Of a stretch of DNA of 64,000 bases, positions 55,338-61,026 are shown piece by piece. The DNA comes from Polynucleobacter sp. Adler-ghost (GTDB taxonomy: Bacteria > Pseudomonadota > Gammaproteobacteria > Burkholderiales > Burkholderiaceae): the NCBI RefSeq assembly GCF_018688495.1, contig NZ_CP061320.1, positions 1,770,586 through 1,834,585 of the forward strand. The letters run 5' to 3'. The notes below the pieces were generated by a model. It saw only the letters and a program-made list of their open reading frames with translations, was not told the origin of the DNA and did no database searches. The stretch's first letter is position 1; the number at the start of each line of letters is the position of its first letter. A program made the translations under genes and the position numbers.

Positions 55338-55364
55338 TTAGCACTCGCGTGTAGGGAGTGCTGA
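55338..55364. promoter_or_regulatory. CIRCE operator (HrcA binding site) of groESL
   Basis: TTAGCACTC (55338-55346), nine bases, then GAGTGCTGA (55356-55364). This matches the CIRCE consensus TTAGCACTC-N9-GAGTGCTAA at 17 of 18 positions. It overlaps the expected groES transcription start, the right place for repression by HrcA, which is encoded at 15480-16502. Confidence 0.95.
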
Positions 55365-55412: not shown

Positions 55413-55442
55413 TTCAAATGAGCCTCCTGCTCTTTCTATAAT
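55413..55442 (+). promoter_or_regulatory. Predicted promoter of the EAL/two-component operon
   Basis: TTCAAA (55413-55418, 4 of 6) and a perfect TATAAT (55437-55442) with an 18-base spacer. It would give a leader of about 98 bases before the ATG at 55547. It lies back to back with the groESL sigma-32 promoter, the two -35 elements being 18 bases apart. Confidence 0.6.
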
Positions 55443-55546
55443 GAGGGCAGGCAAGTAGGTAGATTCCTACACACAAATAAGCCTTAAGCCCTTACCCCTC
55501 CAATCTGTCCTGCCTAGACTGACTGTTCAATGATTGGAGAATGCTG

Positions 55547-56374
55547 ATGAGCCCGAAATCCCGGCTGTACACGCTTGTAAAGGCTTGGAAGAACAAACCC
55601 TTCCAAGAAGTACGCGATGCCTGCGGCCAGCCTTGGCTTGGTCTTAGCGGCGAAGCGCTAGAAGAACACCAATCCTGGTCCCAGCGACAAGCGATTAGTA
55701 ACGAACCCATCTTTAATAGCCAAGGAACTAAGCTGACGAGCTCTTTATTTAGACCATTACTGACCGCCACCGACACGCAGCTCCTCAGATTATTCATGGA
55801 GGGCCTAGACACCATTACGTATTGGTACCGTAGCGGACGCTTCATCCCTGGCATCTTACCGATGCCAGCGCAATATCTAGCATCCAGCAGTTTTGTAGAT
55901 GCTTTAAGCGACCTCATTCTGAACTCACGACTCCCAGTTGGTCTAGTGAGCCTAGGAATACACAAACTCAAGGATGCTGACTCCATGGAATCTAGCATGG
56001 AAGGATTATTGCGTATGCGTCGTCTCGGCGTCCTGATCCATCTTCTGGATTTTTCTGGAGCGCATGCGCAAATCCGCTGGGTAGAGCAGATCGAGCCTGA
56101 AGGCATTCATATTGAGATGGGGCAATTTCGAGCTGATGGCTTACCAAGCGAAATGAGTTCCCTTGGCCAGAAATTCCATACCCTAATCTATGCCAGCAAC
56201 ATCACTCTGGTAAAGGATTTAGAAAATGTCATAGCAATGGGAGCACACCATAGCTATGGCGGACTCATGATGCCGCCGGTGAGCCGACATCAAATGCTAC
56301 ACATGAGCGATAGCCGTATCGCTAAGGCCATTTTTTCGCTGCACCCTCATAAAACCCAAAATGGAGACAAGTAA
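55547..56374 (+). CDS. Degenerate EAL-domain protein (probably catalytically inactive)
   Basis: A 275-residue cytosolic protein. The ATG at 55547 is preferred because GGAGA ends six bases before it; ATG 55541 is too close to that site. From residue ~50 it can be laid along an EAL domain by eye: EPIFNSQG / SLFRPLL where QPIV..G / EALLRW is expected, LASSSFVDALSDLILNSRLP, LLRMRRLGVLIHLLDFSG in place of the LRxLGVxLALDDFG block, EPEGIHIEMGQF for the LKID segment, and SYGGLMMPPVS for QGYLFxxP. The metal- and c-di-GMP-binding acidic residues, the Asn and the Lys are nearly all replaced, so phosphodiesterase activity is unlikely. The first ~50 residues match nothing I recognise. It overlaps the response regulator gene by one base, suggesting a regulatory or adaptor role in that pathway. 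The EAL assignment is inference from pattern, not a computed match. Confidence 0.65.
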   Translation: MSPKSRLYTLVKAWKNKPFQEVRDACGQPWLGLSGEALEEHQSWSQRQAISNEPIFNSQGTKLTSSLFRPLLTATDTQLLRLFMEGLDTITYWYRSGRFIPGILPMPAQYLASSSFVDALSDLILNSRLPVGLVSLGIHKLKDADSMESSMEGLLRMRRLGVLIHLLDFSGAHAQIRWVEQIEPEGIHIEMGQFRADGLPSEMSSLGQKFHTLIYASNITLVKDLENVIAMGAHHSYGGLMMPPVSRHQMLHMSDSRIAKAIFSLHPHKTQNGDK

Positions 56375-56997
56375 TGAGAAAACGCGTGATGTTGGTAGAT
56401 GACCATCCAGCTATGCTGATGGCATTAAAAAGTATGTTGCAAGATCAATTGCTTTTTGAGATCGCAGGACAGGCGCAGCATGGTGAAGAGTGCCTACGCT
56501 CAATCAAAGAAGTCAATCCTAATATGGTCATCTTAGATTTGGATATGCCCAAGACGGATGGTTTTGATGTGATCCGTCGGATTGGCTTGATGCATCCAGA
56601 AGTTCGTATTTTGGTGTTGTCTAGCCTAGATGAAGCAGTCTATGGTGGCCGAGTACGGTCCTTGGGTGCACATGGTTTCGTAAATAAGACTGCTGGAGCC
56701 GATGTCATTTTGGCTGCCTGCGTTGCCATCTCACAGGGATATACCTTCTTCACACATGGGAAGAATGGCAACACCTCTCTGAGCGACAACGATAAATTGG
56801 CATTGATATCTGATCGTGAGCTACAAGTTATGAAGTATCTCGGCAAAGGTAATACTAACCAGCAGATATCTGACCTACTGCACATCAGTAATAAGACAGT
56901 AGCAACCTACAAGACTAGAGTCTTTGACAAACTAGGCATTAACAATATTGCTGATTTGATCCTGTTCTGTCGCATGAACAACATCATCGAAAGCTAA
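56374..56997 (+). CDS. NarL/LuxR-family response regulator (BvgA/EvgA-like)
   Basis: A 207-residue two-domain regulator. The receiver (residues 1-120) has the acidic pair D9/D10 in LVDDHPAM, phosphoacceptor D55 in VILDLDMPKTDG, the switch serine in LVLSSLD, and K105 in GFVNKTAG. The C-terminal LuxR-type helix-turn-helix is LISDRELQVMKYLGKGNTNQ, then QISDLLHISNKTVATYKTRV and FDKLGI. This architecture and the adjacent hybrid kinase resemble BvgAS/EvgAS phosphorelays. Start overlaps the upstream stop (TAATG); the kinase gene follows after seven bases. Target genes are unknown; its own divergent promoter region is an obvious candidate. Confidence 0.93.
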   Translation: MRKRVMLVDDHPAMLMALKSMLQDQLLFEIAGQAQHGEECLRSIKEVNPNMVILDLDMPKTDGFDVIRRIGLMHPEVRILVLSSLDEAVYGGRVRSLGAHGFVNKTAGADVILAACVAISQGYTFFTHGKNGNTSLSDNDKLALISDRELQVMKYLGKGNTNQQISDLLHISNKTVATYKTRVFDKLGINNIADLILFCRMNNIIES

Positions 56998-57004
56998 GCA
57001 GCAC

Positions 57005-59431
57005 ATGCATCGATTCATATTGAAAAAAGTATTCACACTCTGCTGTATCTATACAAGTTTGGCGCATGCCGGATCATTTAGCACTTCAGAGCAATCATGG
57101 ATCGATGCCCATCCAGTGGTGCGATTTAGTATTCACGAAAAATATGCATCCTATCTCAACCCATCCAACCAACAATATGGTGCAGCACCCTTTATGGCGC
57201 TTCTGTCAAAAATGGAAGAGTGCACACGACAGCAATATGTGCCGATATGGAGAACATCAGACCCTGAAGGCTTAAAGCAACTCAGAAAAGGTGAAGTGGA
57301 TTTCATCATCGATCCGCCAAGCATTGACGATCACGTGTTGCAATTTGGATCTCTATCTGAAGCCATCTTTTGGGGTCATGATGCCGTCCTTACTAAGGCC
57401 TCAAACAGATTGGATTCAACTTATACCAAGATTGGCTACTTTGATCGAGGCCTTGAAAATTCGCCGTCCGGCGCTGATATCCACAGTGAGACCAAACAAG
57501 GGCAATCCCCCACCAGCTTAATTCAATCCCTCATTAAAAATGATATCGAGGCGCTAGTCCTACCCATTCGCTTGGCACAGCAACTGATTCGCGAAACCCA
57601 AAATACAGATCTAAAAATTGATGGTTTATATAGTCGCGATCCATTTGCCTATCGCTGGCTTATCTCAGACCATAATGCCCCTCTTCATGATGTACTAAGC
57701 CACTTTCTAAATGACTTAGATCCCATGGCATCACGCCAACTTTTTGCATTAGGGGATGAACACAAACCAAAGTCAAATGTACTACCCTGGCTGAGCACCG
57801 CTCTCATCCTAATAATTGGTTTAGTGATGTTTTATCAACTCCAAAGAAAATATTTCTATCAAAAGAAAACTGCTCTGGAATTACTACATTCAAAAGAGCT
57901 GGCTGAAAAAGCAAATGCTGCGAAGTCTGCATTTTTAGCAACTATGAGCCATGAAATTCGGACACCAATGAATGCCATCTTAGGCGTTCAAGAACTACTG
58001 CTTGGTAGCGCACAATTTCCCAAGAAAGATAAGCCGTTATTAAAGAGTGCTCAAGCTTCTGCCGAATCTCTTTTAGGCATGCTCAATCAAGTGTTAGATA
58101 TTTCCAAGATTGAGGCTGGCAAACTTACTCTCAACCTAGAGCCTTGTAATCCATATCAATTGATTATGGATATTCATGCGGCATTTTCTACAGTAGCTAA
58201 GAAACAGAATTTGCTACTCCATACCTCGATTGATCCCAGAATCGCTGAAGTGCTCATGATTGATTCTTTACGTCTGAGACAAGTTCTGCAGAATTTACTG
58301 AGCAATGCGATTAAGTTCACCGCCGAAGGTGAGGTGTACTTTTCTATTAGCGTCCTCGCTGATGATCATGCCGGCCAATTACTTGAGTTCAGGGTGATTG
58401 ATACTGGAATAGGAATGGGAAATGATCAAATCAAATTGGCTCTACAAGCTTTTGAACAATTACCAGCCACACAAGAGTCCTGTCTATCAGAGCAAAAGAG
58501 GGGGACGGGCCTTGGGCTCACCATCACTAATCATTTGGTGACTTCCATGAACAGTCATCTTTATTTTGAGAGCGCCCCAGGCTTTGGAAGTAATGTCCAC
58601 TTTTCAGCAGCCTTTCCTAGAACCAGTGTTGCTGCCGCACAGGCTCCAGGCTTTGATTCTCTCGGGCCATTATCTAAGAACTTCATCTCAAAAAAGCCGG
58701 GCAGAAGAAATTCTCATATAAATGCTTTAGTAGTTGAAGATCACCCAGCTAGTCGGCAAATTTTGTCGCTGCAATTAGAAGCGCTTGGTATCAGCGCTTG
58801 CGTTTGTGAGAATGCAGTTGCGGCACTCGAATTAATGAAGGAGCGTCATTTTGATCTGATGCTCACAGATCAATCGATGCCCGGAATGCAGGGCTCTGAG
58901 TTAGCCAAACAAATCCGATCTCTAGGTAATCGTGATTTGATTATTATTGGCGTCACTGCAGATATTTATGCCCTAGACTCTCGCCATCAATTTTTATCAT
59001 CCGGTATGAATGGCGTACTCATCAAGCCTTTGAGTTTAGGCGCCCTCGAGAATGAACTTATGCGCTATTTTGACGCCAGCCAAGAGTTAGCCTCCTCTGG
59101 TGAGCCCTATTCGTTTGATGCCTTCTCTAATCTCATCAAAAATGATTCCCATCAGATCATAGTGATCCTAGAGGAAATTGAGAAGGTTCACTTAGACGCT
59201 CTGAATCAATTGCAATCAGACGGCAAGCAAATCCGCATTGATGAAGTCCATTTTCAAAGTCTAGTTCATAAAGTCAAAGGTGGGGCACAACTACTTCAAG
59301 CTACTGAATTTACCCGTGCCTGCGAATCACTTGAAGTGAATGGATCGCTTACCGAGCGCATTGAGAGATTCACCGTCCTTCTAGAAGAGCAAAACCAAAC
59401 TATTGAGGCCTATAAGAAAAAATATCGATAG
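57005..59431 (+). CDS. Hybrid sensor histidine kinase with periplasmic binding domain (BvgS/EvgS-like)
   Basis: An 808-residue membrane kinase. In order: signal peptide ending SLAHAG (~23); a single periplasmic binding-protein type 3-like domain (~25-255; WIDAHPVVRFSIHEKY, LKQLRKGEVDFIIDPP); one membrane helix (~263-280); a short linker with no evident PAS domain; dimerisation/phosphoacceptor H316 in FLATMSHEIRTPMNAILG; ATPase boxes N434 (LQNLLSNAIKF), D466 (VIDTGIGMG) and GTGLGL (500-505); receiver D622 (LMLTDQSMPGMQG) with K674; and an HPt-type tail with H755 in LVHKVKGGAQLL. This supports a four-step His-Asp-His-Asp relay to the neighbouring response regulator. BvgS itself has two binding domains and a PAS domain, so this is a simpler variant. 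Ligand unknown. Confidence 0.92.
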   Translation: MHRFILKKVFTLCCIYTSLAHAGSFSTSEQSWIDAHPVVRFSIHEKYASYLNPSNQQYGAAPFMALLSKMEECTRQQYVPIWRTSDPEGLKQLRKGEVDFIIDPPSIDDHVLQFGSLSEAIFWGHDAVLTKASNRLDSTYTKIGYFDRGLENSPSGADIHSETKQGQSPTSLIQSLIKNDIEALVLPIRLAQQLIRETQNTDLKIDGLYSRDPFAYRWLISDHNAPLHDVLSHFLNDLDPMASRQLFALGDEHKPKSNVLPWLSTALILIIGLVMFYQLQRKYFYQKKTALELLHSKELAEKANAAKSAFLATMSHEIRTPMNAILGVQELLLGSAQFPKKDKPLLKSAQASAESLLGMLNQVLDISKIEAGKLTLNLEPCNPYQLIMDIHAAFSTVAKKQNLLLHTSIDPRIAEVLMIDSLRLRQVLQNLLSNAIKFTAEGEVYFSISVLADDHAGQLLEFRVIDTGIGMGNDQIKLALQAFEQLPATQESCLSEQKRGTGLGLTITNHLVTSMNSHLYFESAPGFGSNVHFSAAFPRTSVAAAQAPGFDSLGPLSKNFISKKPGRRNSHINALVVEDHPASRQILSLQLEALGISACVCENAVAALELMKERHFDLMLTDQSMPGMQGSELAKQIRSLGNRDLIIIGVTADIYALDSRHQFLSSGMNGVLIKPLSLGALENELMRYFDASQELASSGEPYSFDAFSNLIKNDSHQIIVILEEIEKVHLDALNQLQSDGKQIRIDEVHFQSLVHKVKGGAQLLQATEFTRACESLEVNGSLTERIERFTVLLEEQNQTIEAYKKKYR

Positions 59432-59469: not shown

Positions 59470-61026
59470 ATGCGCACCAAACCCTATTCGCCCTCTGCCA
59501 TCCGTCTATTAGCCTTTTTATGGGCTAGTCTGATTACTTGTCAAGCCCACTCCGCTGACATAATTGCTCAAAATACTGCTCTTCAGTATATCCCTAAGGC
59601 CGTAGCTGCCAGCCTTGAAAAGAGCCAGATTCCAAAAGAATCTATCAGCATTTCAGTGATGGAAATAGAGCCAGGCCAGCCAGGGAAAATAACAGCAAAA
59701 ACAAAGGTGGACTGGCGTTCTAAGCAGGCAATGAATCCTGCGTCAACCATGAAACTGCTCACTACACTCACTGGTCTAGATGTACTAGGACCGCAATATC
59801 GTTGGCGTACAAATATCTATACCGATGGGCTTATTCGTCAGGGCACCCTTAAAGGGAATCTATATTTGCAAGGCACCGGAGATCCAAAGCTAGTTCCCGA
59901 AGAAATGGCCAAAATGATGAAGGCCTTGCAAAATCTGGGGATTCAAAAAATTGATGGTAATTTATTTTTTGATAGAAGCGCCTATGCCCCTAATGCCATG
60001 GAGCACAACACAATTGATGGGGAATCCTTGCGCGCCTATAACGTGCCGCCAGATCCTCTCCTATATGCTTTTAGAACCCTCTCATTTCAATTAGGTAAAT
60101 CGCGTACTGCAGACTTTATTGACATAAGCTACACACCTCCACTATCACAACTCAAAGTGATCAATCAGATGCAATTGGTTGATCAATCCTGCGATAGCAG
60201 GAAAGGTAACATTCGCTTTAACTTAGATCCGGAGAGCGATGGAGCAAACACTAACCAACCTCTGACCGCTCAATTTTCTGGTAACTTTCCAAAAGGCTGC
60301 AAGGGGGTGAGCTATAACGTCGTTGTTTTGGATGCGAATACCTTTTTCACTCAAGGCTTCGCCGCAGCTTGGGAGTTAGCTGGTGGATCTTGGATTCAAG
60401 CACCCACCGGACAATCTGCTACGGTCCCTCTAGCAGCCCGACTATTACTCCAGTTTGAGGGCATCCCCCTGGCTGATGACGTACAAGACATTAACAAGTT
60501 TTCGAATAATGTCATGGCTAGACAATTGATGCTGACCTTGGCTCTAGAGAAGATGGGTAAGCCTGCAAGCACTAAAAATGGTGAGCTCGTAATTCAGAGC
60601 TGGCTAAAGGGTTTAGGACTTCAGTTTCCAGAACTCGTCATTGAGAATGGCTCTGGTCTATCCCGCAATGAAGCGATCTCTGCTGAACATATGACGCAAT
60701 TATTAGTTACGGCTCGTAATTTATCCGTTACGGATGCGTTTTATAACAGCCTTCCAATTGCAGGAACAGATGGCACGATGAAAAATCGCCTCATGACACA
60801 TTTACGGAAATTTTTGCATTTGAAGAAAAAACCTGAGGCTCGAATCAAAACAGGGGCACTTGTGGATGTAAGGGCAATCTCAGGCTATGTGATGAGTAAA
60901 TCTGGAAGGATGTATGCGGTGACCTCCTTCATAAACCATCCCAATGCTTTGAGAGGCTTAGAGGCGCATGATCAATTATTGGCGTGGCTACTAAATGATG
61001 GGCCAGACCCAAAACAGGCACGCTGA
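59470..61026 (+). CDS. dacB: D-alanyl-D-alanine carboxypeptidase/endopeptidase (PBP4 type)
   Basis: A periplasmic class C penicillin-binding protein that trims peptidoglycan cross-links. The 518-residue protein has a signal peptide (LLAFLWASLITCQAHSAD, cleavage near residue 29) and the three active-site motifs: SxxK at S92-K95 (NPASTMKLLTTL), SxN at S345-N347 (KFSNNVMARQL) and KTG at 460-462 (RIKTGALVDVRAISGY), with the large PBP4 insertion between the first two. IENGSGLSRNE and IAGTDGTMKNRL are also typical. Its last 55 bases overlap the convergent sua5-like gene. Confidence 0.95.
   Translation: MRTKPYSPSAIRLLAFLWASLITCQAHSADIIAQNTALQYIPKAVAASLEKSQIPKESISISVMEIEPGQPGKITAKTKVDWRSKQAMNPASTMKLLTTLTGLDVLGPQYRWRTNIYTDGLIRQGTLKGNLYLQGTGDPKLVPEEMAKMMKALQNLGIQKIDGNLFFDRSAYAPNAMEHNTIDGESLRAYNVPPDPLLYAFRTLSFQLGKSRTADFIDISYTPPLSQLKVINQMQLVDQSCDSRKGNIRFNLDPESDGANTNQPLTAQFSGNFPKGCKGVSYNVVVLDANTFFTQGFAAAWELAGGSWIQAPTGQSATVPLAARLLLQFEGIPLADDVQDINKFSNNVMARQLMLTLALEKMGKPASTKNGELVIQSWLKGLGLQFPELVIENGSGLSRNEAISAEHMTQLLVTARNLSVTDAFYNSLPIAGTDGTMKNRLMTHLRKFLHLKKKPEARIKTGALVDVRAISGYVMSKSGRMYAVTSFINHPNALRGLEAHDQLLAWLLNDGPDPKQAR

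Follow-up and report, generated by a model that had tools for sequence, protein, structure and literature searches.

What can an EAL-family protein do at the head of a two-component operon once it has lost the residues needed for catalysis? The question is raised by a locus in Polynucleobacter sp. Adler-ghost, a member of a small-genome, common freshwater genus, whose 2.1 Mb genome (G000) is a single contig. The window analysed here is a 64,000-nucleotide stretch of that contig (NZ_CP061320.1, positions 1,770,586 to 1,834,585; G000:C1:1770586-1834585), and the locus in question comprises three of its genes, given in window coordinates with lengths in amino acids (aa):

55547..56374, + strand: EALd, degenerate stand-alone EAL protein, 275 aa
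56374..56997, + strand: RR, EvgA/BvgA/FimZ-type response regulator, 207 aa, acceptor D55
57005..59431, + strand: HK, hybrid histidine kinase, 808 aa

A sequence-only reading of the window had described these genes as one operon with a 1-base overlap and then a 7-base gap. This layout was confirmed: EALd and RR are joined by TAATG, sharing one base, and seven bases separate RR from HK. Among 120 of 485 protein matches listed, Polynucleobacter is the genus wherever one is stated. As detailed below, the trio is real, conserved and functionally coherent. There is, in our judgement, about an even chance that EALd would be a non-catalytic co-regulator of the adjacent BvgA-type response regulator, independent of cyclic di-GMP (c-di-GMP) and working by direct contact.

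Conservation and linkage across the genus

The genus was sampled with 121 genomes (labelled G###, their loci L###), 96 of them of good quality. EALd was matched in 112, including 93 of the good-quality set. Linkage was assessed at loci from 110 of the 112 positive genomes, G057 and G103 lying outside this set, and RR stands immediately 3′ of EALd in 109 of the 110 loci (108 intact, one cut by a contig end); the sole exception, L086, runs off its contig. The co-occurrence with the regulator-kinase pair for which the sequence-only reading had called is thus borne out, and the orthologues are not, as would have spoken against it, found mostly without the pair. G057 carries EALd and RR on a single contig, and G103, which is 100% complete, holds EALd fragments and no RR match. 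In eight of the nine EALd-negative genomes, only three of the nine being of good quality, nothing matches RR at more than 32% identity; the other, G092, has an RR orthologue at a contig end.

The loci fall into the groups L001-L070, L071-L090 and L091-L110, the last being the most divergent. EALd is intact in 102 of the 110, namely 97 by script plus five divergent copies (L093, L094, L097, L102, L109) whose local alignment starts late and whose frames are full length; it is broken in six (L010, L044, L071, L077, L080, L082) and, in a further two (L086, L089), truncated where the contig stops. The EALd stop and the RR start overlap in 75 of 97 loci measured, by 1 nucleotide (nt) in 62, 4 nt in 11 and 7–16 nt in two; a gap is found instead in the others, of 0–10 nt in 12 and 11–42 nt in 10. 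For pairs drawn from L001-L090 with dS of 0.05–1 only, the median dN/dS (nonsynonymous over synonymous substitution rate) is 0.102 for EALd (367 pairs), 0.109 for HK (28) and 0.005 for RR (241), which is exceptionally constrained. EALd is seldom kept without RR, whereas RR can persist after EALd is lost; this pattern suggests that EALd is a modulator rather than a relay component.

A search for EALd in 200 genomes drawn from the family gave 23 with a match at 1e-8, 21 of them from the genus, and one in 300 genomes drawn from the order gave 49 at 1e-6, four from the genus. The non-genus matches listed all begin at model position 79 or later (≥79), and so are without the N-terminal part. The motifs E-x-L-x-R and DDFG are present in 17 of 19 partial-match loci (18 from outside the genus, the other an additional match within a genus genome), and three shorter partial matches (frames of 273, 266 and 369 aa) have no neighbouring RR or kinase match.

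The EAL-like protein, its partners and its promoter

EALd has the EAL fold and sequence homology to the EAL phosphodiesterase family (PF00563) and lacks the catalytic and metal-binding residues of that family. The segment bearing the EAL motif is deleted, and five catalytic positions are replaced almost uniformly among the 97 intact copies: Q→E in 95 (E53 in the window), N→P in 93 (P105), E→G in 92 (G137), K→H in 93 (H188) and Q→Y in 93 (Y237). Of eight further positions outside the deleted segment, the window protein keeps one, D168, itself unconserved. EALd thus looks catalytically dead, as its inactive appearance had suggested to the sequence-only reading. Its best conserved stretch is the N-terminus:

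55547..55618, + strand: EALd codons 1–24, short helix 3–15, then flexible linker

Mean amino-acid identity is 0.93 over residues 1–24, against 0.50–0.73 in other segments. Helix 3–15 is predicted at low confidence, and before residue 48 the prediction gives two helices, the first of them short, with a disordered stretch between them. Within L001-L070, synonymous differences are 0.01 in codons 1–10, 0.13 in codons 11–20 and 0.39–0.67 in codons 71–260; at 66 loci of this group, 55 of the 57 nucleotides of codons 1–19 are conserved at ≥90%, as are 128 of the 152 nucleotides from −92 to +59 around the start. At 14 loci of L071-L090, by comparison, these first codons vary synonymously and residues P3, K4, S5, R6, Y8, W14, N16, K17, P18 and F19 are kept. 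Because of the synonymous freeze in the former group and the residue retention in the latter, constraint at both the protein and the nucleotide level acts on the EALd start.

The nucleotide conservation in L001-L070 takes the form of a block of ~150 nt (window 55455-55605) that runs from an operator-like palindrome, described below, through EALd codon ~20, third positions included. Synonymous variation is also low at the EALd-RR junction (0.10–0.14 over the final EALd codons and 0.11 over codons 1–10 of RR). An RNA element in the leader was considered and set aside: the three weak Rfam matches listed are not near the gathering score, and folding z-scores are −0.3 to −2.4. An inverted repeat pairing with the Shine-Dalgarno sequence (55498-55505/55532-55539) is conserved in most of L001-L070, but the eight later leaders included in the alignment (L072-L090) no longer have its 5′ arm.

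RR has EvgA as its top match both in NCBIfam (E 3e-41, under the equivalog cut-off) and in the PDB. HK comprises one periplasmic Venus-flytrap-like sensor, a transmembrane segment, and HisKA, HATPase, REC and Hpt domains, the Hpt under the Pfam cut-off; the relay residues H316, D622 and H755 of HK and D55 of RR are intact. The sensor alone has no Pfam match. In L091-L110, the kinase open reading frame measures 505–613 aa in 18 of 19 loci (L100 reads as 20 aa) and aligns to the window HK from about residue 255–306 onward; because the match begins there, the flytrap region is missing or unrecognisable in this group, which retains RR and EALd.

The region upstream of EALd holds three elements:

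55413..55442, + strand: upstream promoter P1, TTCAAA-18-TATAAT, 10/12 consensus
55455..55471, + strand: GTAGG-N4-TTCCTACA, an operator-like palindrome to which RR may bind
55492..55520, + strand: core promoter P2, weak presumed −35 TTACCC, invariant −10 TAGACT

Five of the six −10 positions of P1 are 90–93% conserved (66 loci), P1 not being significant by scan alone. The palindrome, GTAGG-N4-TTCCTAC(A), starts 92 nt 5′ of the EALd ATG, with TAGACT 60 nt past its start; a transcription start near 55527, as we infer, would put the operator centre at about −64. TAGACT is invariant in 27 of 27 aligned leaders. It occurs together with the box GTAGG-N4-TTC[C/T]TAC in 80 of 82 main-group leaders and alone in two. 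Among 15 divergent leaders, 12 have neither element, two have both and one has the −10 alone; the five divergent loci named above, with a later start, have the box in two and the −10 in all five.

The genome contains two perfect GTAGGN4TTCCTAC sites. Allowing up to one mismatch gave four rows against eight for a reversed control pattern, so only perfect matches carry weight. In 73 genus genomes, GTAGGN4TTCCTACR gave 73 rows in 58 genomes (control, 9), or 66 places once seven palindromes found on both strands are merged, and 53 of these are the trio's own promoter (coordinates, split by eye). The right half-site agrees with the BvgA heptad TTTCCTA, as given in an excerpt of PMC4314077, at six of seven positions and the left at five. 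At BvgA-activated promoters, dimers lie 22 bp apart and the last abuts a poor −35 (excerpt of PMC7250471); the spacing at the trio promoter would leave room for one further dimer. The second perfect site lies 77 nt 5′ of genes for an FAD/NAD(P)-binding protein, a Bcr/CflA-type transporter of the major facilitator superfamily and a NUDIX protein (L172 5309-8641; G000:C1 about 1425308-1428640), which follow a frame resembling, by eye, NAD-dependent DNA ligase. The site and the first two genes recur in G008 and G058, and G047 has the site followed by a NUDIX-like frame only. This gene set is a candidate regulon of RR.

Similar palindromes were observed elsewhere in the divergent group: TAGGAAATTTCCTA, with two perfect heptads of the BvgA type, stands 5′ of other genes, and loci L205-L212 have 18-bp palindromes, TGTAGGAAATTTCCTACA or variants, ahead of other genes. 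One set of neighbours consists of an HTH_17 gene with a 955-aa frame opposite it; another has a TonB receptor gene, opposite which lie a CNNM/CorC-like gene and then one for a T2SSE ATPase; the third is a gene for a 191-aa protein that has no Pfam match.

On the 3′ side, the operon may extend to a fourth gene:

59470..61026, + strand: dacB-like D-Ala-D-Ala carboxypeptidase (S13; PF02113, E 5e-77)

It begins 38 nt 3′ of HK in the window, and the distance is ≤73 nt in 36 of 39 loci measured in L001-L070; the median stands at 445 nt in L071-L090 and at 812 nt in L091-L110 (18 loci each). On the 5′ side, divergent frames read by eye as groES-groEL, and 5′ of groES (55338-55364) lies a CIRCE-like inverted repeat, TTAGCACTC...GAGTGCTGA. 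In L217 (G035), a Tn7-like element sits within EALd at codon 4, flanked by a 5-bp duplication (GAAAT); it encodes TnsA, TnsC/TniB, two TniQ and, at the TnsB place, a 661-aa frame without a Pfam match. L009 (G008) and L013 (G044) carry the end sequence of this element no more than about 40 nt 5′ of the operator, and a divergent Tn7-like set (22–26% identity) lies upstream in L328 (L058/L328, G013). The interval between groES and EALd is possibly used repeatedly as an attachment site by Tn7-like elements.

A co-regulator model and its rivals

In the model that we favour, the kinase would sense a periplasmic ligand via its one Venus-flytrap domain and phosphorylate D55 of RR through H316-D622-H755. 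Phosphorylated RR would bind the palindrome at 55455-55471 and activate EALd-RR-HK, possibly with dacB. EALd, translated just ahead of RR and coupled to it, would bind RR or the relay's receiver, perhaps with its N-terminal segment as docking site, and would limit RR activity as a built-in negative feedback. The sequence-only reading had likewise suggested that EALd may sense the state of the relay or gate the regulator. Only tentatively would we go further and propose that EALd founds a class of c-di-GMP-free phosphorelay co-regulators, in which the EAL active site was rebuilt as a new, near-invariant pocket for a ligand or for docking. On this view EALd, produced in a fixed ratio to the almost invariant BvgA-type RR, would gate it, and machinery of c-di-GMP signalling would have been turned into a protein regulator dedicated to a single two-component system.

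Several observations weigh against this model. RR is intact in all six loci where EALd is broken, and three of these (L044, L077, L080) retain a kinase reading frame of >700 aa, which L071 and L082 do not (the L010 locus is too short to judge); hence, EALd is dispensable there and not strictly required. Two near-complete genus genomes, G069 and G300 (both 99%), lack the trio altogether. The most divergent group has the box at the trio promoter in just four of 20 loci, and the conservation of the EALd N-terminus is partly at the nucleotide level in L001-L070. Descent of EALd from a Roc-type EAL protein is neither supported nor rejected (p-AU, approximately unbiased test, 0.41; long branches meet).

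Could EALd still respond to c-di-GMP? Its EAL fold and the one GGDEF protein of its own genome (258 aa, motif intact) would allow this. However, the substrate- and metal-binding positions are replaced, and in that genome no EAL protein passes the Pfam cut-off and PilZ went unmatched. Furthermore, GGDEF matches (up to E 0.001) were found in 83 of the 121 genus genomes, and EALd is matched in 36 of the remaining 38, unbroken in 35 and broken in G001 (G037 and G067 have no match). This persistence argues against a c-di-GMP effector, a role that we consider very unlikely; EALd probably acts without c-di-GMP. With 38 GGDEF-less genomes, genome content alone bears on the choice between c-di-GMP and protein-contact models. 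It is scarcely credible, too, that EALd is a decaying passenger whose reading frame mainly serves RR translation: the translational coupling and the six broken copies fit such a role, but not the median dN/dS of 0.10 or the replaced pocket's near-invariance among intact copies.

That near-invariance (92–95 of 97) is also more than simple loss would give, and it would suit a small-molecule sensor, whose rebuilt active site binds a ligand other than c-di-GMP and signals to RR or the kinase. The same residues may, however, serve only the stability of the barrel or a contact surface for another protein, and there is no ligand candidate; we consider the sensor unlikely. Quite unlikely, in our view, is a target outside the operon, as FlhD is for YdiV, with the operon serving only co-expression. 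The survival of RR in the six loci would agree with it, as would the excerpted view that the regulator antagonised by BvgR is RisA and not BvgA (PMC12805831, section 15); the adjacency of RR and the frequent stop-start overlap speak against it.

Comparison with known systems

Relatives of the trio exist outside the genus. In an RR tree (midpoint drawing, root unknown, L221 branch long), the genus RRs (14 rows) fall with those of L221 and L223 on one side of a 100/98 branch and 19 other RRs on the opposite side; by this branch, RR belongs to the same group as the RocSAR-type regulators. L221 and L223 are Roc-type loci from other families of the order. In the former, the RR is accompanied by a kinase of 1156 aa that contains two stretches of SBP_bac_3, by a divergent gene for a REC-EAL protein in which every motif is kept, and by an usher-like gene of the CS1 type. 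The latter combines an RR with a kinase frame of 1231 aa and a divergently encoded EAL protein, which has three of seven motifs and, by eye, a receiver. The HK sensor matches residues 269–493 of the L221 kinase, its Pfam SBP_bac_3 region (probability 96.9, E 1.6e-10), and residues 304–611 of the L223 kinase (probability 96.9). An EAL gene plus a kinase match was found at one of the 20 best non-genus RR places (L223). Among 80 named loci with an EvgA-type RR, the best of 563 relatives and none of them from Bordetella, nine have an EAL gene within 5 kb (frames of 390–442 aa), six of them with a kinase match as well. Neither gene accompanies 58 of 82 loci (these 80, L221 and L223), the kinases being probably under-called at the strict threshold. 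The trio is best seen as a reduced Roc/Bvg-type system.

Trios of EAL protein, regulator and kinase (RocS1-RocA1-RocR, RocR3) exist in Pseudomonas, where RocR and RocR3 oppose cup expression and RocR3 lacks one of seven essential residues (excerpt of PMC12051241). RocR-type proteins have a receiver domain, whereas EALd has no receiver-domain match; the L221 EAL protein retains all motifs, and the Roc-type EAL gene is divergent from RR.

The enterobacterial YdiV-type proteins are single EAL-fold proteins that lack catalysis and act by protein contact. EALd, likewise a single EAL-fold protein without the catalytic set, resembles them at the level of the fold; their target differs from the one predicted for EALd (YdiV acts on FlhD), and they are not known to belong to a kinase-regulator operon.

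In Bordetella, bvgR sits beside bvgAS, whereas the EAL gene of the trio comes first and is coupled to RR. The BvgASR-type kinase has two flytrap domains plus PAS, whereas HK has one flytrap-like sensor and no PAS match. Both systems combine a BvgA-type regulator, an unorthodox kinase (HisKA-HATPase-REC-Hpt) and an EAL protein of class III that is inactive and has no DNA-binding domain (excerpts of PMC11537037, PMC12805831). BvgR lacks 12 of 13 activity residues, and no DNA-binding domain has been described for it (excerpt of PMC11537037). It represses vrg genes, its gene is activated by phosphorylated BvgA, and its mechanism is given as unsettled (excerpt of PMC12805831); the conserved BvgA-like box of the EALd promoter, with a half-site like TTTCCTA, would be the counterpart of this activation (PMC12805831, PMC4314077). 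Section 15 of the same 2025 review still proposes c-di-GMP binding by BvgR, whereas EALd persists without GGDEF matches, BvgR being compared here by description only. As EAL partners that oppose BvgA- or RocA-linked outputs in these excerpts, RocR, RocR3 and BvgR count as precedents for our model. Salmonella FimW, at first taken for an EAL protein binding FimZ, is no precedent, the EAL protein of that cluster being STM0551 (excerpt of PMC3487979).

The sequence-only reading had not recognised the combination of an inactive EAL protein with a regulator-kinase pair. Its claim to novelty is not supported in view of BvgR in BvgAS, the Roc-type trios of Pseudomonas and the loci found here. Its picture of an inactive EAL protein tied to the pair is supported: EALd looks catalytically dead, is conserved across the genus and probably works without c-di-GMP. 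Related trios are thus known in other bacteria and the stripped-down Polynucleobacter version is new; no paper describing it was found among the open-licence PMC papers listed. It is debated by what means BvgR and other inactive EAL proteins govern BvgAS-type systems; with EALd of that fold and genetically coupled to its regulator, the Polynucleobacter trio offers a simple system in which to test this.

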